Positions 7,862 to 16,475 of a stretch of DNA of 46,532 nt are shown here, piece after piece. The first letter of the stretch is position 1. Each line of letters begins with the position of its first letter. The notes under the pieces are model-generated. The model ran no database searches and was not told the origin of the DNA. It saw only the letters and a program-made list of their open reading frames with translations. The stretch covers positions 1 through 46,532 of the forward strand of contig JAJTYR010000026.1 in the NCBI GenBank assembly GCA_021463505.1. The letters are read 5' to 3'. The stretch is from Burkholderiaceae bacterium. Its GTDB lineage: Bacteria; Pseudomonadota; Gammaproteobacteria; Burkholderiales; Burkholderiaceae_E. A program made the translations under genes and the position numbers.

Positions 7862-8320
7862 ATGACGACGTCGCTTTCCCCGACCGAAGTTCGCGCGCTG
7901 GAGGAAGCCCTCGACGACGAGTACCGGGCGTGGTCGACCTACGACCAGGTGATCGCCGATTTCGGCGAGATCCGTCCGTTCGCCAATATCCGGGACGCCG
8001 AGGCGCGGCACATCGGGGCGCTGCTCGCCCTGTTCGAGCGTTACGGGCTGACCGTGCCCGCGAATCCGTGGCCGGGCAAGGTTGCCCGCTACGCCGGCGT
8101 GCGCGACGCCTGCGAGGCCGGGGTCGCCGCCGAGGTTGCCAATGGCGCGCTCTACGAGCGGTTGCTTGCGGCCACGCGCCGGCCCGACATCCTCGCCGTC
8201 TTCCGCAACCTGCAGGAGGCCTCGCAGCAGAGGCACCTTCCGGCCTTCCGGCGCTGCGCCGAACGCGGCGCCAGCGGCGGCGGGTGCGGGCAGCGGCGCC
8301 GCAGAGGCGTGCGCCCGTGA
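7862..8320 (+). CDS. Ferritin-like domain protein (DUF2202-type)
   Basis: A 152-aa mostly helical protein. Acidic and His residues are spaced as in ferritin-like di-iron proteins (LEEALDDEYRAWSTYDQV, then RDAEARHIGALLALFERYGL), resembling the DUF2202/rubrerythrin-like group. Such proteins bind iron or handle peroxide, but function here is not established. The last 15 residues are Arg- and Gly-rich and probably unstructured. The gene begins 23 bp after ybgE and its stop overlaps the GTG of the octaheme cytochrome, so it belongs to that redox module. Confidence 0.75.
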   Translation: MTTSLSPTEVRALEEALDDEYRAWSTYDQVIADFGEIRPFANIRDAEARHIGALLALFERYGLTVPANPWPGKVARYAGVRDACEAGVAAEVANGALYERLLAATRRPDILAVFRNLQEASQQRHLPAFRRCAERGASGGGCGQRRRRGVRP

Positions 8321-9960
8321 TCATGCCGCCTTCGAGAAGCTTCAGCGCGAACCCGAAGGGTTTCCGAGGGGTCGTGCCCGTGGCCGTGATGCTGCTGGGC
8401 GTCGTCGCCGCGTTTCCTGGCGCTCCGATCCTTGCCGCAGCGAGCACCGGCACCGCCGACCACACGAAGTTCAAGGAACTGCAGGGCCCGTTCAGGACTG
8501 GGCAGGACGTCACCCGTGCCTGCCTCGGCTGCCACACCGAGGCCGCGAAGCAGGTGATGCAGACGCGGCACTGGACCTGGGAGTACACGAATCCCGACAC
8601 CGGCCAGAAGCTCGGCAAGAGGTCGATGCTCAACGGCTTCTGCATCGGGGACCGCTCCAACGAACCGTTCTGCCAGTCCTGCCACATCGGCTACGGCTGG
8701 AAGGACGACAAGTTCGACTTCAGCGCGCAGGAGAACGTCGACTGTCTGGCCTGCCACAACACCGGCAACTACGTGAAGCTGTCCGGTTACGCGGGGCATC
8801 CACCCTACGAGCGCACCGAGTTTCCGGCCGGGTCCGGCAAGTACGTCGAAGCGGTGAACCTCGCCGAGGTCGCCAGGCAGATCGGCGCGACCTCGCGCCG
8901 GACCTGCGGCGCCTGCCACTACTACGGCGGCGGCGGTGACGGCGTGAAGCACGGCGACCTCGACTCGTCGCTGAACAAGGCCGACCGGGCGCTCGACGTG
9001 CACATGGCGGTCGACGGCCCGAACTTCAGCTGCTCGACCTGCCACAAGACCGAGCGGCACAAGGTGGCCGGCAGCCGGATCAGCATGACCGGTGCCGACC
9101 CCCATGGCGCGATCGTTCGCGGCGAGAAAACCGACCGCAACCCGGCCACCTGCCAGGCCTGCCACGGCGACACGCCTCACGGGGGCGATCCGCTGCATTC
9201 ATCGCGGCTCGATGCGCACGCCCGGACGCTGGCGTGCCAGAGCTGCCACATCCCGGCGTTCGCGCGTGGCGGCGTGCCCACCAAGATGGGCTGGGACTGG
9301 TCGACCGCGGGCAGGATGAACGCCGAAGGCAAGCCCTACGCGACGAAGGACGACAAGGGCCGCGTGGTCTACGACAGCAGGAAGGGCGACTTCGAGCTCG
9401 GCGACGACGTGGTGCCCGCCTACCGGTGGTTCGACGGCCGGGTCACCTACACGCAGCCCGACACGAAGATCGACCCGTCCTCGCGCGTGCCGATCAACCG
9501 CTTCCACGGCACGCCCGGCGCGCCCGACGCGAGGATCTGGCCGGTCAAGGTCTTCCACGGCCGCCAGCCCTACGACACCGAGCTGATGACGCTGCTGGTT
9601 CCGCACACCGCGACGCCCGACGACACCGCCTTCTGGTTCAACTTCGACTGGGCCAGGGCGCTGAAGGCGGGCGCCGAAGCCACCGGCTTGCCCTACAGCG
9701 GCAAGTTCGGCTTCGTCGACACCTCGATGGTCTGGCCGATCACGCACATGGTGGCGCCAAAGGAACAGGCGCTGCAGTGCGGACAGTGCCACAGCGCTTC
9801 CGGGCGACTCGCCGGCGTCCCCGGCGTCTGGATGCCGGGGCGCGACCGCAACGCCACGCTGGACACGCTGGGCTTCGGGTTGGCCGGCCTGGTGCTCGTC
9901 GGCGTCATCGGGCACGGCGGGTTGCGGATCCTCACCCGCAACAAGCGCAAGGGGCACTGA
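8317..9960 (+). CDS. Octaheme c-type cytochrome, tetrathionate reductase (OTR) family
   Basis: The 547-aa protein has eight CxxCH haem-binding motifs (His at residues about 73, 123, 147, 201, 243, 283, 311 and 492). The long gap before the last motif fits octaheme tetrathionate reductase-like cytochromes. A signal peptide or N-terminal helix (residues about 18-42) and a C-terminal transmembrane helix (about 517-535) place it in the periplasm, anchored to the membrane. Shewanella OTR reduces tetrathionate, nitrite and hydroxylamine; the substrate here is not known. Start is GTG at 8317, overlapping the previous stop, or ATG at 8323. The next gene, a cytochrome b, overlaps by one base and likely feeds it quinol electrons. 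Confidence 0.88.
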   Translation: MIMPPSRSFSANPKGFRGVVPVAVMLLGVVAAFPGAPILAAASTGTADHTKFKELQGPFRTGQDVTRACLGCHTEAAKQVMQTRHWTWEYTNPDTGQKLGKRSMLNGFCIGDRSNEPFCQSCHIGYGWKDDKFDFSAQENVDCLACHNTGNYVKLSGYAGHPPYERTEFPAGSGKYVEAVNLAEVARQIGATSRRTCGACHYYGGGGDGVKHGDLDSSLNKADRALDVHMAVDGPNFSCSTCHKTERHKVAGSRISMTGADPHGAIVRGEKTDRNPATCQACHGDTPHGGDPLHSSRLDAHARTLACQSCHIPAFARGGVPTKMGWDWSTAGRMNAEGKPYATKDDKGRVVYDSRKGDFELGDDVVPAYRWFDGRVTYTQPDTKIDPSSRVPINRFHGTPGAPDARIWPVKVFHGRQPYDTELMTLLVPHTATPDDTAFWFNFDWARALKAGAEATGLPYSGKFGFVDTSMVWPITHMVAPKEQALQCGQCHSASGRLAGVPGVWMPGRDRNATLDTLGFGLAGLVLVGVIGHGGLRILTRNKRKGH

Positions 9961-10556
9961 TGTCGCAGCGGATCTACCTCTTCACGCGCTTCGAGCGCTT
10001 CTGGCACTGGACCCAGGCCGCGCTGATCGTCAGCCTGCTGTTCACGGGTTTCGCGATCCACGGCAGCCATTCGCTGATCGGGTTCCTTACCGCGGTGGAG
10101 ATCCACGAGGTCGCGATCTGGCTGCTGATCGCGCTGTGGGTTCTCGCGATCTTCTGGCACTTCACCACCGGCCAGTGGCGGCACTACATCCCGACCGTGG
10201 AGAACCTGGACCGGATGGTGCGCTACTACGCCTACGGGATCTTCGTCGGGGCGCCGCATCCGTACAAGGTCACCGCCGAGCGCAAGCACAACCCGCTGCA
10301 GCGGATCACTTACCTGGGCGTCAAGCTGCTGATCAACCCGCTGCTGTGGCTGTCGGGGCTCGCCTACCTGTTCCGGGACTCATTGCAGCCCTGGCTGCCG
10401 GCGGCGCTGGGGCTGCAGCAGGTCGCCACGCTGCACACCGCGGGCGCCTTCCTGATGCTGGCTTTCCTGATCGCGCACGTGTACCTGGCGACCGCCGGCG
10501 CGACGCCGACCGCCCACATCCGGGCGATGATCACCGGCTGGGAGGAGCAGCATTGA
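9960..10556 (+). CDS. Cytochrome b561/b6-type membrane subunit, electron donor to the octaheme cytochrome
   Basis: A 198-aa membrane protein with about four transmembrane helices and His residues suited to ligate b haems (FERFWHWTQAALIVSLLFTG, VEIHEVAIWLLIAL, IFWHFTTGQWRHY, LHTAGAFLMLAFLIAHVY). It resembles the cytochrome b subunits of thiosulfate reductase and formate dehydrogenase. The ATG shares one base with the TGA of the octaheme gene, indicating translational coupling. It probably oxidises quinol and passes electrons to the periplasmic octaheme protein. Confidence 0.88.
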   Translation: MSQRIYLFTRFERFWHWTQAALIVSLLFTGFAIHGSHSLIGFLTAVEIHEVAIWLLIALWVLAIFWHFTTGQWRHYIPTVENLDRMVRYYAYGIFVGAPHPYKVTAERKHNPLQRITYLGVKLLINPLLWLSGLAYLFRDSLQPWLPAALGLQQVATLHTAGAFLMLAFLIAHVYLATAGATPTAHIRAMITGWEEQH

Positions 10557-11998
10557 GCGCCTGTCCCGGCGAGCGGGGCGGCTCCGGGGCCAGGGCCGAG
10601 CCGAAGGACCTGCCCGCGGTGGACGAGTTGCTGCGCGCCTCCGGCGTGGCTTCGATGGTGGCCGAGCACGGTCACCGCTTGCTCGCCGCCGAAGTCCGGA
10701 GCCTGCTCGACGCCATGCGCGCGCAGGCGCGCGCCGGCACCCTGGGTGTGCAGGCGCTGCGCCCGGACGCGCTCGAAGCCGCGCTGCGCTCGCGCGTCGA
10801 CGCCCGGCTCGCGCCGCGCATGCGACCGGTGCTGAACCTGACCGGGACCGTGCTGCACACCAACCTGGGCCGCGCGCTGCTTGCCGACGCCGCCGTGCGG
10901 CACGTCGTCGAGACGATGGCCCGTCCCAACAACCTGGAGTACGACCTCGAGACCGGCGGCCGTGGCGACCGCGACGCGATCGTCGAGGAACTGCTCTGCA
11001 CGCTGACCGGTGCGCAGGCCGCTACGGTCGTGAACAACAACGCCGCGGCGGTGCTGTTGACGATCGCGGCGCTCGCGCGCGGAGGCGAGGTGATCGTCTC
11101 GCACGGCGAGCTGGTGGAGATCGGCGGCGCGTTCCGGATGCCCGACGTGATGGTTGCGGCCGGCGCCGAGCTGGTCGAAGTGGGCACGACCAACCGCACG
11201 CATCCGCACGACTACGAACGCGCGATCGGTGAGCGAACCGCGCTGCTGATGAAGGTGCATACGAGCAATTACATGGTGCAGGGCTTCACGTCGTCGGTCG
11301 ACGAGGCCACGCTGGCGCGGATCGCGCATGCGAAGGGGCTGCCGCTGGCGAGCGACCTCGGCGCCGGATCGCTGGTCGACCTTGCGGAGTATGGCCTGCC
11401 GCGCGAGCCGACGCCGCAGGACAAGCTCGCCGCCGGCTGCGACGTCGTCACCTTCAGCGGGGACAAGCTGATGGGCGGCCCGCAGGCCGGACTGGTCGTG
11501 GGCACGCGCGATGCCGTGGCGCGAATCCGCAGGTTCCCGATGAAGCGGGCGCTGCGGATGAGCAAGCTGCCGCTGGCCGCGCTCGAGGCCACGCTGATGC
11601 TCTACCTGCGGCCCGAGCGCCTGGCCCTCGACCTGCCCACGTTGCGGCTGCTGACCCGTCCGGTTCGGGCGATGCGCGAGCTGGCGATCGCGTTGCAGCC
11701 GGCGCTCGCGGCTGTGGTGGCGCCGCGCTTCACGGTCGAGGTGGTCGAGATGCTCGGACAGATCGGCTCAGGATCGCTGCCGGTCGAGCGGCTGCCGTCG
11801 GCGGGCCTGGCGATCGCGCCAGCGCAGCGCAAGGGCGCCGGGCGCGCGCTCGACGAGCTGGCGGGCGCGCTGCGCGCGCTGCCGCTGCCGGTGATCGGCC
11901 GGATCGCCGACGATCGCCTGCTGCTGGACCTGCGTTGCCTGGAGGACACCGCGCCGTTCGCGGCGCAGCTGGGGCACCTGCAGCGGGCCCTGGCCTGA
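10553..11998 (+). CDS. selA: L-seryl-tRNA(Sec) selenium transferase
   Basis: The 481-aa PLP enzyme converts Ser-tRNA(Sec) to Sec-tRNA(Sec) using selenophosphate. Conserved SelA segments are seen: VLNLTGTVLHTNLGRALL, the NNNAAAVLLTI stretch and the PLP-lysine motif TFSGDKLMGGPQAG. The start is TTG at 10553 in a TTGA overlap with the cytochrome b stop; no upstream ATG exists and the N-terminal PAVDELLRA segment is family-like, so TTG is credible. It is followed after 13 bp by selB. selD (selenophosphate synthetase) is not in the window and must lie elsewhere if the system works. Confidence 0.95.
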   Translation: MSACPGERGGSGARAEPKDLPAVDELLRASGVASMVAEHGHRLLAAEVRSLLDAMRAQARAGTLGVQALRPDALEAALRSRVDARLAPRMRPVLNLTGTVLHTNLGRALLADAAVRHVVETMARPNNLEYDLETGGRGDRDAIVEELLCTLTGAQAATVVNNNAAAVLLTIAALARGGEVIVSHGELVEIGGAFRMPDVMVAAGAELVEVGTTNRTHPHDYERAIGERTALLMKVHTSNYMVQGFTSSVDEATLARIAHAKGLPLASDLGAGSLVDLAEYGLPREPTPQDKLAAGCDVVTFSGDKLMGGPQAGLVVGTRDAVARIRRFPMKRALRMSKLPLAALEATLMLYLRPERLALDLPTLRLLTRPVRAMRELAIALQPALAAVVAPRFTVEVVEMLGQIGSGSLPVERLPSAGLAIAPAQRKGAGRALDELAGALRALPLPVIGRIADDRLLLDLRCLEDTAPFAAQLGHLQRALA

Positions 11999-12011: not shown

Positions 12012-13919
12012 TTGATCGTCGGCACGGCGGGCCACATTGATCACGGCAAGACCACGCTGGTGCGCGCGCTCACCGGCGTCGACACCGATCGCCTGCCCGA
12101 AGAGAAAAAGCGCGGCATCTCGATCGAGCTGGGCTACGCGTTCCTGGACACGCCGGACGGCGATCGCATCGGCTTCGTCGACGTGCCCGGCCACGAGCGG
12201 CTCGTGCACACGATGGTCGCCGGCGCGACCGGGATCGACTTCGCGCTGCTGCTGGTGGCCGCCGACGACGGCGTGATGCCGCAGACCCGCGAGCACCTGG
12301 CCGTGCTGTCGCTGCTCGGCGTCGGGCGTGGCGCCGTGGCGGTGACCAAGGCCGATCGGGTCGGCGACGAGCGGGTTCGCGAGGTGTGTGCCGAGGCGGC
12401 CGCGCTGCTCGGGCACACGCCGCTGGCAGGCGCTCCGGTCATTGCGGTGTCTGCACAACGCGGAGACGGGCTCGATGCGCTGCGCGCGTTGCTGTTCGAC
12501 GCCGCCCGGGTGGCGTCGAGGCCTGAAGACGAAGGCACGGCATTCCGGCTGGCGATCGATCGCGCGTTCTCGCTCGACGGGATCGGCACCGTGGTGACCG
12601 GAACCATGCACGCCGGCACGGTGACGCCGGGCGCGGAGCTGTCGCTCGTGCCGGGCGTCCGCACAATGCGGGTGCGCAGCCTGTACGCGCAGAACCGGCC
12701 GGTGCAGCGCGCGCGCGCGGGGCAACGCTGCGCGCTTGCGCTGGCCGGCGTGGACCGGGAGTCGATCGAACGCGGTCAATGGCTGGTTGCGCCGGCTGCG
12801 GCGCTGTCCACCGATCGCATCGATGTCGCACTCACCTTGTGGCACGCGGAGCCGCGAGCGCTGCGCTCGGGCACGCCGGTGCGTGTCCACCTGGGCGCTG
12901 CCGAAGTGCAGGGCAGCGTGGCGGTGCTCGATCGCGACGCGTTGGCGCCCGGTGAGACCGCGCGGGTGCAGCTGGTGCTTCGGGCGCCGATGGGCGCCTG
13001 GCACGGCGATCGGCTGGTGCTGCGCGATGCGTCGGCGACCCGCACGGTGGCGGGCGGAACGGTGCTCGACCCGTTCGCGCCGGTTCGCTATCGACGAACC
13101 CCGCAGCGCATCGCCGAGCTCGACGCGCTCGCGCATCCCGACATCGGGCAAAGGCTGGCTGCGTTACTGTTGGCTGCTCCGCACGGCGTCGACCTGCGTC
13201 GCTTCGCGGTGGCGCAGGGGCGGGCGCTGCCGCTGGTCGCGCCCGATGTGCTGCGTCAGGCCGACGGCGTGTCCGACTGGGCGTTGGGCGCCGGGCACGC
13301 GCTGGACGCCCGGCGCAGGACGCTCGAAGCGCTGGCAGCGTTCCATGAGCGGCATCCGAGCGAACTCGGCCCGGATTCGGCGCGCCTGCGCCGGCTCGCG
13401 ATGCCGCGGCTGCCGGAACCCTTGTGGCGTGCCCTGCTCGGCGAGCTGCAAGGTTCGGGCGACGTCGCCGTGAGAGGCGCCTTCGTACACCTGCCCGCGC
13501 ACGGCATCCGCCTGTCCGACACCGAGCAGGCGATCGCGAAGAAGATCGTCCCGATGCTGGCCGCGGCAGGCTTCGAAGGCGCCTGGGTGCGTGACCTGGC
13601 GCGCGACAGTGGCGAGTCGGAGCCGCTGATGCGCGTGACGCTTGCGCGCCTCGCGCAGCGTGGGGAACTGCATCAGGTGGTCAGGGATCTGTACTATTCG
13701 CCGGATGCCGTCGAACGGCTCGCGGCCATCGCAAGGGGATTGGCGCGGGACAGCGGCGGAGAGGTGGCTGCGGCGCGCTTCCGGGACGCCACGGGGCTGG
13801 GTCGCAAGCGGGCGATCCAGATCCTCGAGTGTTTCGACCGCGTCGGGCTGACGCGCCGCGTCGGCGACGTGCACCGGATTCGCGGTGACAGCCACCTGTT
13901 TGGCGAGGCGCAGCGATGA
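12012..13919 (+). CDS. selB: Selenocysteine-specific translation elongation factor
   Basis: The 635-aa GTPase delivers Sec-tRNA(Sec) to UGA codons marked by a SECIS hairpin. It has G1 GHIDHGKTTL (residues 7-16), the switch-II DVPGHE and G4 TKAD, then elongation-factor beta-barrels and the C-terminal winged-helix repeats that bind SECIS RNA. One of these contains GLGRKRAIQILECFDRVGLT. The start is TTG at 12012, directly before VGTAGHIDHGK. It is downstream of selA and 22 bp before tRNA-Sec. Confidence 0.96.
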   Translation: MIVGTAGHIDHGKTTLVRALTGVDTDRLPEEKKRGISIELGYAFLDTPDGDRIGFVDVPGHERLVHTMVAGATGIDFALLLVAADDGVMPQTREHLAVLSLLGVGRGAVAVTKADRVGDERVREVCAEAAALLGHTPLAGAPVIAVSAQRGDGLDALRALLFDAARVASRPEDEGTAFRLAIDRAFSLDGIGTVVTGTMHAGTVTPGAELSLVPGVRTMRVRSLYAQNRPVQRARAGQRCALALAGVDRESIERGQWLVAPAAALSTDRIDVALTLWHAEPRALRSGTPVRVHLGAAEVQGSVAVLDRDALAPGETARVQLVLRAPMGAWHGDRLVLRDASATRTVAGGTVLDPFAPVRYRRTPQRIAELDALAHPDIGQRLAALLLAAPHGVDLRRFAVAQGRALPLVAPDVLRQADGVSDWALGAGHALDARRRTLEALAAFHERHPSELGPDSARLRRLAMPRLPEPLWRALLGELQGSGDVAVRGAFVHLPAHGIRLSDTEQAIAKKIVPMLAAAGFEGAWVRDLARDSGESEPLMRVTLARLAQRGELHQVVRDLYYSPDAVERLAAIARGLARDSGGEVAAARFRDATGLGRKRAIQILECFDRVGLTRRVGDVHRIRGDSHLFGEAQR

Positions 13920-13941
13920 ACCGGGCGATTTCGTTCGATGC

Positions 13942-14037
13942 GGAGGGGACACGATCCCGGTGGATCGGCCGGGCTTCAAACCCGGTGGGTGGCGCCATGC
14001 GTTGCCGGGTGGGTTCGACTCCCATTCCCCTCCGCCA
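13942..14037 (+). tRNA. selC: tRNA-Sec (anticodon TCA)
   Basis: A 96-nt tRNA with the special selenocysteine architecture. The 8-bp acceptor stem is GGAGGGGA (13942-13949) with TCCCCTCC (14026-14033), followed by discriminator G and an encoded CCA. The D stem has 6 bp (CGATCC/GGATCG) with a 4-nt loop. The anticodon loop CTTCAAA carries TCA at 13976-13978 on a CCGGG/CCCGG stem. The variable arm is long, and the T arm has 5 bp with loop TTCGACT. It sits just behind selB and ahead of the selenoprotein gene. Confidence 0.97.
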
Positions 14038-14066
14038 CGCTCGACGTGCATGAGCCTTGCGACGGG

Positions 14067-14095
14067 TTGACGCAGATCAGTACTGCGGATAGGGT
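14067..14095 (+). promoter_or_regulatory. Candidate sigma-70 promoter for the selenoprotein gene
   Basis: TTGACG (14067-14072) is followed after 17 bp by TAGGGT (14090-14095). The -35 box matches the consensus at five of six positions, the -10 box only weakly. It lies between tRNA-Sec and the peroxiredoxin start and could give that gene its own expression. Confidence 0.35.
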
Positions 14096-14149
14096 GGCCG
14101 TCAGACTGCGTCGGGGTGAGCTGTGTCTCCCAGGCAGAAAGGAGGTTCC

Positions 14150-14863
14150 ATGGCAGATCAACCGCAGGGGTGCGCGCGGGTAACGGGCTCGGTAGTCGGT
14201 GGCCCGTCCGAGGCGCAACCCCCGTCAACACCCAGTGCACCACAGGAGGCAAGCAGAATGACCGCACGCGTGGGGCAGAAAGCCCCCGACTTCAACGCGC
14301 CGGCCTACTACCGGGGCAGGTTCACCAACGTCAAGTTGTCGGACTTCGCCGGCAAGTGGGTGATGCTGTGCTTCTACCCCGGCGATTTCACGTTCGTCTG
14401 AGCCACTGAAGTGTCCGCGGTCGCGGCCAGGTATCAGACGTTGCAGGATCTCGGCGTGGAAGTGATCTCGGTCAGCGTGGACAGTCACTTCGTCCACAAG
14501 ATGTGGGACGACCACGAACTGAGCAAGATGGTGGACGGTGGGGTGCCCTTCCACATGGCTGCCGACCAGGCAGGAAACGTGGGGCGCGCGTACGGTGTCT
14601 GGGACGAAAGCCAGGGCATCGAGATGCGCGGTCGCTTCATCATCGATCCGGATGGTGTGATCCAGGCGATGGAGGTGCTCACCCCGCCGGTCGGGCGCAA
14701 GTTCGCCGAGACCGTGCGCCAGGTGCAAGCGTTCCAGGTGGTGCGTGCCTCCGGCGGCGCCGAGGCGACTCCCGCGGGCTGGGAGCCCGGCAAGCCGACC
14801 CTCAAGCCGGGCCCCGACCTGGTGGGCAAGGTCTGGGAGGTCTGGAACCCGTCGATGGAGTGA
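14150..14863 (+). CDS. Selenocysteine-containing peroxiredoxin (AhpC/Prx-type), TGA read as Sec
   Basis: Read through one in-frame TGA (14399-14401), this encodes a 237-aa thioredoxin-fold peroxiredoxin. Upstream is [13 protein letters not shown] and FYPGDFTFV; downstream is [12 protein letters not shown]. The TGA therefore falls exactly on the peroxidatic Cys of the FVCPTE motif (Sec84, or Sec48 from the later start). The C-terminal [20 protein letters not shown] matches typical Prx. No Cys follows the Sec, so there is no C-terminal resolving Cys. The enzyme should reduce peroxides in the cytoplasm. Two in-frame starts each have a good ribosome site: ATG 14150 (AAAGGAGG, 4 nt spacing) and ATG 14258 (AGGAGG, 8 nt spacing). 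Proline of CPTE is replaced by Ala. selA, selB and selC lie directly upstream. Confidence 0.93.
14399..14437 (+). promoter_or_regulatory. Bacterial SECIS element
   Basis: Immediately 3' of the in-frame TGA lies a hairpin: CCGC (14415-14418), loop GGTC (14419-14422), GCGG (14423-14426). Below it are TG/CA pairs with a T14414 x C14427 mismatch, an internal loop and a lower CTGA/TCAG stem (14406-14409 with 14434-14437). The GGUC loop and the loop position, 17 nt past the UGA, match the SelB-binding SECIS of E. coli fdhF. It is the expected recoding signal. Confidence 0.85.
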
Positions 14864-14944
14864 GCCGATCGGGGATGTCCAGCCGCGCGCGGATACGATT
14901 CTTACGACACAGGCCGGATTGAACCTGCCGCAGAAGAACTGTTT

Positions 14945-15191
14945 GGCGCGCGAGAACGCGTGCCTGGACCGGCCGGCGCGTCGTGGCTGACCGCAGTGTC
15001 GCCTCGACCACCCGCGGTCCGGCGCTCTTGCCGCCGAATCCGCCGCCGATGCAGGGGGCGATGACGCGGACGTCCTCCTGCTTTGTCCGCAGGCCTTGCG
15101 CAATCAGGTCGCGAGCCGGAGAGGACGTCTGCGTCGAGGCCCGGATGACGTCGAGCGCAACCGGTTGCCCGTTCAAGGTGAAGCGGATCAC
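14945..15191 (-). pseudogene. Xanthine dehydrogenase relic: small-subunit start fused to a large-subunit fragment
   Basis: On the minus strand the reading frame begins IRFTLNGQPVALDV, the typical N-terminus of a CoxS-type 2Fe-2S small subunit. It then jumps directly to ASTQTSSPARDLIAQG and VRVIAPCIGGGFGGK, the molybdopterin-binding core of a CoxL-type large subunit. Neither half is complete, so an internal deletion has joined two neighbouring genes. The frame then runs into antisense of the peroxiredoxin gene. It starts with GTG overlapping the IclR relic stop. Confidence 0.75.
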
Positions 15192-15520
15192 CTGCGCACC
15201 TCCTGCCTGAGGCCGCGTTCCGACGACTGCATGAGAATAGTGCGGCGGTCGTTCGGCGATGGCGAGTGGCCCGTCGTCGCGCTCAGAGCCGGCAGCAGCT
15301 CCTTCACGATCTTCGGGTATGTGTAGGCGGAGGTCGTGAACGAGACCGTCAGCGCGAACTTCTGTCCGCGCGGAGTCACCAGGGGAATCCCGACCGCGCC
15401 GTAGCCGAGGCTGAGCTGGTCTTCGACCACCTCGTAGCCGCGCTCGGCCGCATCGACGATCGCCTTGACGAGGCGCGGGCGGTTGACCAGCGTTTTCGGA
15501 GTGAGCTTCTCGAGAGGCAT
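15188..15520 (-). pseudogene. IclR-family regulator, C-terminal fragment only
   Basis: The frame gives LEKLTPKTLVNRPRLVKAIV, RGYEVVEDQLSLGYGAVGIP and ALTVSFTTSAYTYPKIVKEL, matching the effector-binding C-terminal domain of IclR regulators. The N-terminal winged-helix DNA-binding domain is absent, and the upstream sequence belongs to a different gene fragment on the opposite strand. The product is unlikely to be functional. Confidence 0.7.
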
Positions 15521-15552
15521 CGTCCCAGAACGTCGCAGTGCCCGCGGGTACA

Positions 15553-15796
15553 CCCCCCCGCGATCGTGCAGCGGCTCAACAGGGAAATCGTCAAGTTCAT
15601 CAACACCGACGCGATGCGCAAGCGACTCACGGACATGGGCGCGAACGTCGTCGGCAACACGCCGGAACAGGAAGCGCAGAGGATCAGCGACGAAGTGGCG
15701 CAGTGGGGTGCGGCCGTCGCCGCCGCGGGCGTCAAGCTGGACTACTCGCGGTTGCCGTACCGAAGAATGTGCCGAGCCGCCGTTGCCTTGCCATGA
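15553..15796 (+). pseudogene. TctC/Bug solute-binding receptor, C-terminal fragment
   Basis: The frame encodes PPAIVQRLNREIVKFINTDA, RKRLTDMGANVVGNTPEQ and ISDEVAQWGAAVAAAGVKLD, the conserved C-terminal end of tripartite tricarboxylate transporter receptor (Bug) proteins. More than three quarters of the usual 320-aa protein, including the signal peptide, is missing. Its TGA overlaps the ATG of the following FAD oxidoreductase relic, preserving an original coupled gene pair. Confidence 0.75.
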
Positions 15797-16475
15797 CGCG
15801 AACGATCGTCGAGCCCGAACGACGCACGCCAGTCCTGGGTGAACCGCAAGCCCTGGTCGTGGGTGGCGGCGCGGCGGGAATCGCTGCCGCGTGCGCGGCG
15901 GCCCGCAGCGGGGTCGAGACGCTTCTGATCGAGCGCTTCGGATTCCTTGGCGGTACCCTGACCGTCGTCACGCTGGGCGGTTTCTGCGGCACGCATGCAA
16001 TCGTCGACGACTCGCGACTGGCGCGCGTCGTCGTCGATTCCTCGGGCGACGGCGACGTCGCGGCGTTCGCCGGCGCCGACTACGCGCTCGGCGATGTTGG
16101 ACGAACGCAGACGGGTTCCACGATGTTTCGCCTCGCCGGAGTCGACACGACGATTGCCGGCAGTCCGAGACGCACCAGGGAGGTCGAGGAACGAGCTGGG
16201 AGTTTCTTCCCGACGGGGACTACTACGGCATTCCGTACGGGTGCCTGGTCGTGAGTGGCCTGGAGAACGTCTTCGTTGCAGACAGGAATCTGTCTGCGAC
16301 GCACGCGGCGCAAGCGTCGGCGCGAGTGGCGGGGCCGTGCTTCGCGATGGGCGAGGCGGCGGGCGTTGCGGCGGCCATGGCCGTCCGGGAGAATGTCGCG
16401 AGCAGAGACGTCCCGGTCGACGAACTGCAGTGCGTTCTGGAGCGGCAGGGGGCGATCCTGACCCCAGCGCTATGA
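15793..16475 (+). pseudogene. FAD-dependent oxidoreductase, internally deleted and frameshifted
   Basis: The first frame holds a dinucleotide-binding motif (ALVVGGGAAGIAAACAAARS) and FGFLGGTLTVVTLGGFCGTH, then skips to VDSSGDGDVAAFAGADYALG, implying an internal deletion. Near 16190 homology moves to another frame (EFLPDGDYYGIPYGCLV, GLENVFVADRNLSATHAAQA, GPCFAMGEAAGVAAAM), which ends at 16475. The family is PF12831-like FAD-dependent oxidoreductases. Two independent lesions mark it as dead. Confidence 0.8.

Follow-up and report, generated by a model that had tools for sequence, protein, structure and literature searches.

Comparative analysis of a PrxU selenoprotein peroxiredoxin gene with two conserved in-frame start codons suggests a long form with a cysteine-bearing arm and a short, arm-less form

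Comparative sequence analysis concluded that the prxU gene of a Burkholderiaceae bacterium, located in the 46,532-nucleotide stretch of DNA analysed here (the window), is a regular selenoprotein member of the known PrxU family of peroxiredoxins, and suggested that this gene and its relatives use two start codons in one frame, which would yield a long and a short form of the protein from a single gene. The selenoprotein family itself was already known; what appears to be new is the pair of conserved in-frame starts together with a cysteine-tipped arm on one of the two predicted products. We consider it quite probable that the gene encodes a PrxU selenoprotein whose UGA codon is read by SelB, that it is translated from both starts, and that the arm cysteine is the residue most likely to resolve the selenocysteine (Sec) at position 84.

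The frame from ATG 14150 to the stop codon at 14861–14863 on the forward strand is open except for one TGA (14399–14401), which is codon 84. Translated through this TGA, the long form (14150–14863) has 237 residues and a computed mass of 25.7 kDa, and it matched the NCBIfam model NF040737 (PrxU, thioredoxin-dependent peroxiredoxin by model name) over residues 6–235, model positions 2–232 of 233, with 388.9 bits against a cut-off of 270. In phmmer alignments with AhpC and Prx2 structures, the U of FTFV-U-ATE fell in the column of their peroxidatic Cys. The initial annotation had placed an in-frame TGA at the peroxidatic position of a single peroxiredoxin; its coordinates proved exact, and both the family match and the U/C alignment it had looked to were obtained. 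The motif PxxxTxxU was also present (P77-T81-U84). This motif is given for Sec peroxiredoxins in a part of PMC13188914, and peroxiredoxins with TxxU are presented as an established selenoprotein family in portions of PMC13188914, PMC9312934 and PMC1088965. Among peroxiredoxins, five conversions of Cys to Sec are tabulated in PMC1794560, and a section of PMC7409299 describes raised PrxU in Sulfobacillus on ore concentrate.

The expectation that automated gene calling would split the gene held in part: counted from ATG 14258, the TGA is preceded by 47 residues, and a GTG-started ORF of 150 aa (14411–14863) was in the ORF list, but the corresponding gene of Peptoclostridium (Eubacterium) acidaminophilum is annotated as one coding sequence.

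The genes for Sec incorporation adjoin prxU directly on its 5' side, as had been proposed; they are on the same strand, in the order selA-selB-selC-prxU. They are selA (10553–11998, TTG start; TIGR00474, 563 bits), selB (12012–13919, TTG start; TIGR00475, 457 bits) and the tRNA-Sec gene selC (13941–14037 by ARAGORN; Rfam RF01852, 77.1 bits at 13942–14033). The selD gene, whose absence from the genome the initial annotation had named as counting against its reading, was found on another contig (G000:C13:20056-20985) with 429 bits against a cut-off of 125. The genome (3.58 Mb, 97.7% complete) thus has the full set looked for alongside bacterial selenoprotein genes, three of the four, selA, selB and selC, being in the window. 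Immediately 5' of selA, at 7930–10556, are an octaheme cytochrome of the tetrathionate reductase family and a cytochrome b. Two genomes of the same genus (G007 and G012) each contained two selB matches above the cut-off. A search of the genome for a Sec formate dehydrogenase gave nine Molybdopterin-domain matches, none of them (0/9) with an internal stop, and a promoter and terminator scan of positions 13900–14900 found none.

Sec decoding at TGA 14399–14401 is well supported by comparison with homologues. Among 84,980 species genomes scanned, 525 encoding relatives were found, of which the best 80 were retained, and in all 80 of these the TGA is present at the Sec codon with the frame continuing beyond it; the homologues therefore do not end at this position, an outcome that the initial annotation had named as one that would count against its reading. 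A hairpin, CCGC-GGUC-GCGG at 14415–14426, follows, with its GGTC loop starting 17 nt past the TGA, as had been described. With the T of the TGA numbered 1, pair 18-27 was G-C in 60, C-G in 12, A-T in 5 and T-A in 4 of 81 genes. In a larger set of 130 Sec genes (the 126 of the main set described below plus L204, L205, L210 and L211), the same pair was G-C in 95, C-G in 14, A-T in 11, T-A in 8, and G-T and G-G in one each, so that it is paired in 129/130 with all four Watson-Crick types; pair 17-28 was likewise formed in 129/130, and pairs 19-26 and 20-25 were invariant. The lower stem was looser (16-29 paired in 96/130 and 15-30 in 100/130).

The GU of the apical loop was present in 130/130 Sec genes, which agrees with the stem-loop bearing a G that is sought in bacterial selenoprotein genes. 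The first and last bases of the tetraloop (pair 21-24; 14419–14422 in the window) also covaried, being G..C in 107, A..U in 21 and other in 2 of the 130, as if the apical loop had perhaps just two free bases around the invariant GU. Hairpin positions 18, 21, 24 and 27 each fall on the third base of a codon, and therefore the covariation points to selection on the RNA. The support for this SECIS element is the covariation: taken by itself, the 45-nt stretch had an unremarkable fold energy (z = 0.27), a measure that was set aside as uninformative on its own.

These observations also bear on whether the TGA is a true stop in a split or decaying gene. Just 3' of prxU, at 14802–16475, pieces of a molybdopterin cofactor-binding domain, an IclR C-terminal domain and an FAD oxidoreductase are found in different frames; we read them as decayed genes, and an eroding neighbourhood would fit such a stop. 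That reading is ruled out by the comparative data and is given next to no probability, since the TGA is common to 80/80 homologues, the SECIS element covaries, and the sel genes, selD included, are above their cut-offs. The same evidence upholds the earlier claim of a functional selenoprotein. Elsewhere in the family, one prxU (L092, duplicate L153), regular in other respects, has an in-frame TAA within its core.

A close match to the window protein was found in 1/18 genomes of the genus, namely the window's own, the best among the other 17 being 42% identical, and selB exceeded the cut-off in 6/18, the window's genome included. PrxU above the cut-off was found in 2/369 genomes of the window's class, in 14/400 genomes of the phylum of a Chloroflexota-labelled locus, and in 15/396 and 26/296 genomes surveyed around Actinomycetes- and Spirochaetota-labelled loci, respectively, the central genome being included in each count. 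The best 80 of the 525 relatives are 73–84% identical and come mostly from metagenome-assembled genomes, with records labelled Thiobacillus, Thauera, Anaerolineae, Acidobacteria and others. Such high identity across distant taxon labels suggests transfer between lineages.

The initial annotation had treated two start codons, ATG 14150 and ATG 14258, as alternatives; the comparative evidence suggests instead that both are used. The upstream start is preceded by a Shine-Dalgarno (SD) sequence, AAAGGAGGTT (14138–14147), and the internal start by AGGAGG (14244–14249), 8 nt 5' of ATG 14258, both of which are kept in relatives. Translation from ATG 14258 would give a predicted short form (14258–14863) of 201 residues and 22.1 kDa, in which the Sec is residue 48.

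Conservation of the internal start is well supported by the codon statistics of the relatives. In the window gene and 79 relatives, with the second-start position fixed without regard to the SD, the codon was ATG in 72 and GTG in 8, and an SD match of at least 6 bases preceded it in 64/80, vs 7/1148 for the other in-frame ATG or GTG codons that these genes contain. The Glu codon that forms part of the SD was GAG in 76/79 (35 expected) and the Lys codon AAG in 57/57 (35.8 expected). Where two Lys residues precede the Glu (20 stretches), AAA encodes the first in 18 and AAG the second in all 20.

The main set combined the earlier genes with those of the class survey and of the Chloroflexota-, Actinomycetes- and Spirochaetota-labelled surveys. 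After removal of ten duplicates and one unparsed gene (L191) from 138 considered, it comprised 127 unique genes including that of the window, 126 with Sec and one Cys form (L159). In this set the internal start was ATG in 110 and GTG in 17, and an internal SD of at least 6 bases was found in 105/127, whereas 2000 synonymous redraws gave 34.6 on average and at most 51; the start was taken as the ATG or GTG with the best SD in a six-codon stretch, which somewhat inflates this count. The SD occurs in two codon registers, a Lys/Gln-Glu type (100 genes) and a Gly-Gly type (13 genes), so that the nucleotides are kept while the residues change. The genes are related by descent, so the counts are not independent events. 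When the set was thinned at 90, 80 and 70% identity, an SD of at least 6 bases was kept in 57/68, 12/13 and 4/5 representatives.

Internal SD-like sequences have been proposed to slow ribosomes, and the one in prxU might do so, for example before the Sec codon, with no initiation, the long form being the only product. The long form is also the one found in the NCBIfam model and in the P. acidaminophilum record. We nevertheless regard this as quite improbable, because the codon after the internal SD is just ATG or GTG, because Val at this position is encoded by GTG in 17/17 cases vs 157/405 for Val elsewhere in those genes, and because the SD-to-start spacing clusters across the 127 genes; the length reportedly published for the P. 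acidaminophilum protein is also that of the internal-start translation.

That gene, prxU of P. acidaminophilum DSM 3953, was found by tblastn of plasmid records (NZ_CP007453.1, WP_084481301.1) and is 60% identical to the window gene product over residues 7–233. It is annotated as a 723-base coding sequence of 240 residues, the long form. Translation from an internal ATG after AAAAAGGAGGAGATGTCT would give 203 residues, 22.4 kDa and Sec47. The 2001 description of PrxU in this organism reportedly gave 203 residues, Sec47 and a 22-kDa protein labelled with 75Se, so that, if this was the protein described, the biochemists had the short form in hand and the databases hold the long one. Two starts could explain both lengths in the type member, and published PrxU work may in that case cover the arm-less form only.

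The exact fit of the internal start to the 203 aa, Sec47 and 22 kDa reportedly published would also be expected if the short form alone were made in quantity, with the upstream start minor or regulatory. This, too, seems improbable to us. The upstream SD is strong, with at least 6 matching bases in 106/127 genes (a count somewhat inflated, the start having been picked by its SD), and among 126 genes examined an upstream ATG was present in 122, the best one being in frame in 113. Furthermore, the conserved Cys and Arg of the arm are encoded by different codons from gene to gene, and therefore the arm appears to be translated: the arm Cys codon was TGC in 81 and TGT in 45 of the 126 Sec genes, and an Arg two residues past it was present in 111/126 with all six codons used. 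Use of both starts, in the window gene and its relatives, remains the preferred reading.

The arm comprises residues 1–36 (14150–14257) and is predicted to be mostly disordered, with pLDDT <50 at residues 1–11 and 17–35. Met1, Cys8 and Arg10 are invariant in a 78-row alignment, the arm sequence being otherwise variable, and there is one Cys per arm in 126/126 Sec genes. In one gene (L157) the arm appeared to contain a TGA, the start picker having reached too far upstream. The initial annotation had stated that no Cys follows the Sec and that resolution must use another thiol; the first part stood, and what it had overlooked were two cysteines upstream in the same chain, Cys8 (TGC, 14171–14173) in the arm and Cys74 (14369–14371), ten residues before the Sec, both of which are invariant in the 78-row alignment. 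The 1-Cys peroxiredoxins (Prx6) have no resolving Cys in the chain; here Cys8 and Cys74 are present as candidates for that role.

The window protein lacks the C-terminal resolving Cys by which typical 2-Cys peroxiredoxins are recognised and has Thr in its place (EATPAGW for EVCPAxW). Among the 126 Sec genes this column was Thr in 100, Met in 18, Ala in 3, Leu in 1 and Cys in 3, with one cut off, so that the resolving Cys is absent in 122/125 readable genes. The Cys-type relatives retained it in 38/38 of those parsed out of 39 (37 by pattern, L121 by eye), and the 28 of these that came from the class survey aligned to the family model only from position 16 or beyond, past the arm Cys; the upstream regions of the Cys-type relatives were read by eye. 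The arm Cys is proposed as the resolver because it is present where the C-terminal resolving Cys has been lost, which suggests that it does the work of the lost residue.

An alternative is that both forms are made and the arm Cys links subunits or binds a partner, the Sec being resolved by Cys74 or an outside thiol. In its favour, human Prx4 is among the closest folds (3tjf, a C51A mutant in the PDB), Cys74 has an equivalent in 126/126 Sec genes and in two exported Sec forms (L204 and L205), compared with just 2/38 Cys-type relatives, and three Sec genes with a C-terminal Cys (L035, L073 and L083) retain the arm Cys. Against these points stand the presence of the arm Cys where the C-terminal Cys is lost, the failure to align an arm Cys in the 28 class relatives that keep the C-terminal one, and the exported L204 and L205, which pair an N-terminal Cys with the absence of a C-terminal one. 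On balance this alternative is considered unlikely, although it is the one that we take most seriously. No sign of arm docking at the Sec was seen in the AlphaFold model, in which most of the arm has pLDDT <50.

The exported forms L204 (1318–2055) and L205 are Sec peroxiredoxins below the PrxU cut-off with a signal-peptide-like N-terminus (by eye), behind which the Cys is located; neither has a Met before the core at the internal-start position. The Cys form L159 (306.5 bits; also L206), a Cys-for-Sec relative whose genome (G484) also encodes a Sec form, was considered as an armed Cys member and rejected, since its upstream SD match is 3 bases and its supposed arm is promoter-like. The sequence upstream of its start is TTGACA-17-TAATAT, which we read as a promoter.

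In the mechanism that we favour, in which the arm Cys resolves Sec84, SelB and Sec-tRNA would read UGA 14399–14401 as Sec under the direction of the hairpin just 3' of it, and Sec84 would be the peroxidatic residue. One mRNA would carry two in-frame starts, each with its own SD; ATG 14150 would yield the long chain with a flexible one-Cys arm, and ATG 14258 the short chain without it. Peroxide would oxidise Sec84 to a selenenic acid, which the arm Cys would attack to form a selenenylsulfide that thioredoxin could reduce. Short chains would depend on the arm of a neighbour, on Cys74 or on a thiol outside the protein. We infer that both starts are translated, that the arm acts in resolution and that mixed oligomers occur. 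The proposed role of the arm Cys can be tested, and it would explain how a peroxiredoxin lacking the C-terminal resolving Cys completes its cycle.

A broader and more tentative proposal, to which we give somewhat less than an even chance, is that the whole PrxU family consists of dual-start genes whose products may form mixed oligomers of self-resolving Sec subunits, with the Cys at the arm tip, and arm-less ones. What the family-wide comparison adds is a second-start signal at the nucleotide level that outlasts changes of amino acid and codon register among relatives labelled as several phyla. If true, the resolving Cys would occupy a position new to the AhpC/Prx1 class, and PrxU would be, within the literature searched, the first selenoprotein family known with two conserved translation starts. 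A search of titles and abstract beginnings found none that describes PrxU as having a second start or a Cys in its arm, an absence of little weight as the original PrxU description was outside its scope.

Several known systems resemble the window gene in part. P. acidaminophilum PrxU shares the peroxidatic Sec, the SECIS element, the one-Cys N-terminal arm, Cys74, the absence of a C-terminal resolving Cys (EVAPSGW) and an internal ATG, there after AAGGAGG. The setting differs: the window gene follows selA-selB-selC, whereas that of P. acidaminophilum is located on an 809-kb plasmid between trp genes and an Mrp/NBP35 gene. AhpC and the typical 2-Cys Prx1 proteins (TIGR03137; 1we0 and human Prx2) share the fold and the active-site motif; in a Foldseek comparison, typical 2-Cys Prx1 proteins came nearest to the predicted structure (best E 6e-21, 40–44% identity in the top five rows). 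The window protein differs from them in having Sec for Cys, Thr for the C-terminal resolving Cys and an added Cys-bearing arm, and the AhpC model scored below its own cut-off on it (195.6 vs 272). Human Prx4 (3tjf, 3tkp) also has the Prx1 fold, and its N-terminal extension bears Cys51, which links subunits; unlike the window protein it is eukaryotic, exported and without Sec, and it retains the C-terminal resolving Cys. Bacterial two-start genes such as spaO, whose product SpaO occurs as two proteoforms with a common stop codon, resemble the arrangement proposed for prxU; the literature found on such genes included none on a peroxiredoxin or selenoprotein, judged by title and abstract beginning.

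The flanks of the 80 prxU loci (L032-L111), which are of unequal length, held no generally conserved partner gene; selA-like genes were found at 10 loci, selB-like at 10, a KatG cluster at 7 and a LysR-type cluster at 6, the identities of the selA, KatG and LysR clusters having been tested on one example each. The LysR-type regulator (6 loci) scored best against CidR and OxyR, both below cut-off. Two further clusters recurring near prxU did not match NCBIfam at E 1e-30, and we read them as an Mrp-like ATPase (8 loci) and a NifX-like protein (7 loci). In P. acidaminophilum, too, prxU has an Mrp/NBP35 gene behind it, and on a Chloroflexota plasmid NifB/NifX-like and ATP-binding genes come before prxU. 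Of the 60 loci scanned from the set of 80, 8 had a tRNA-Sec gene in the same orientation as prxU, about 3.5–4.7 kb 3' of it.
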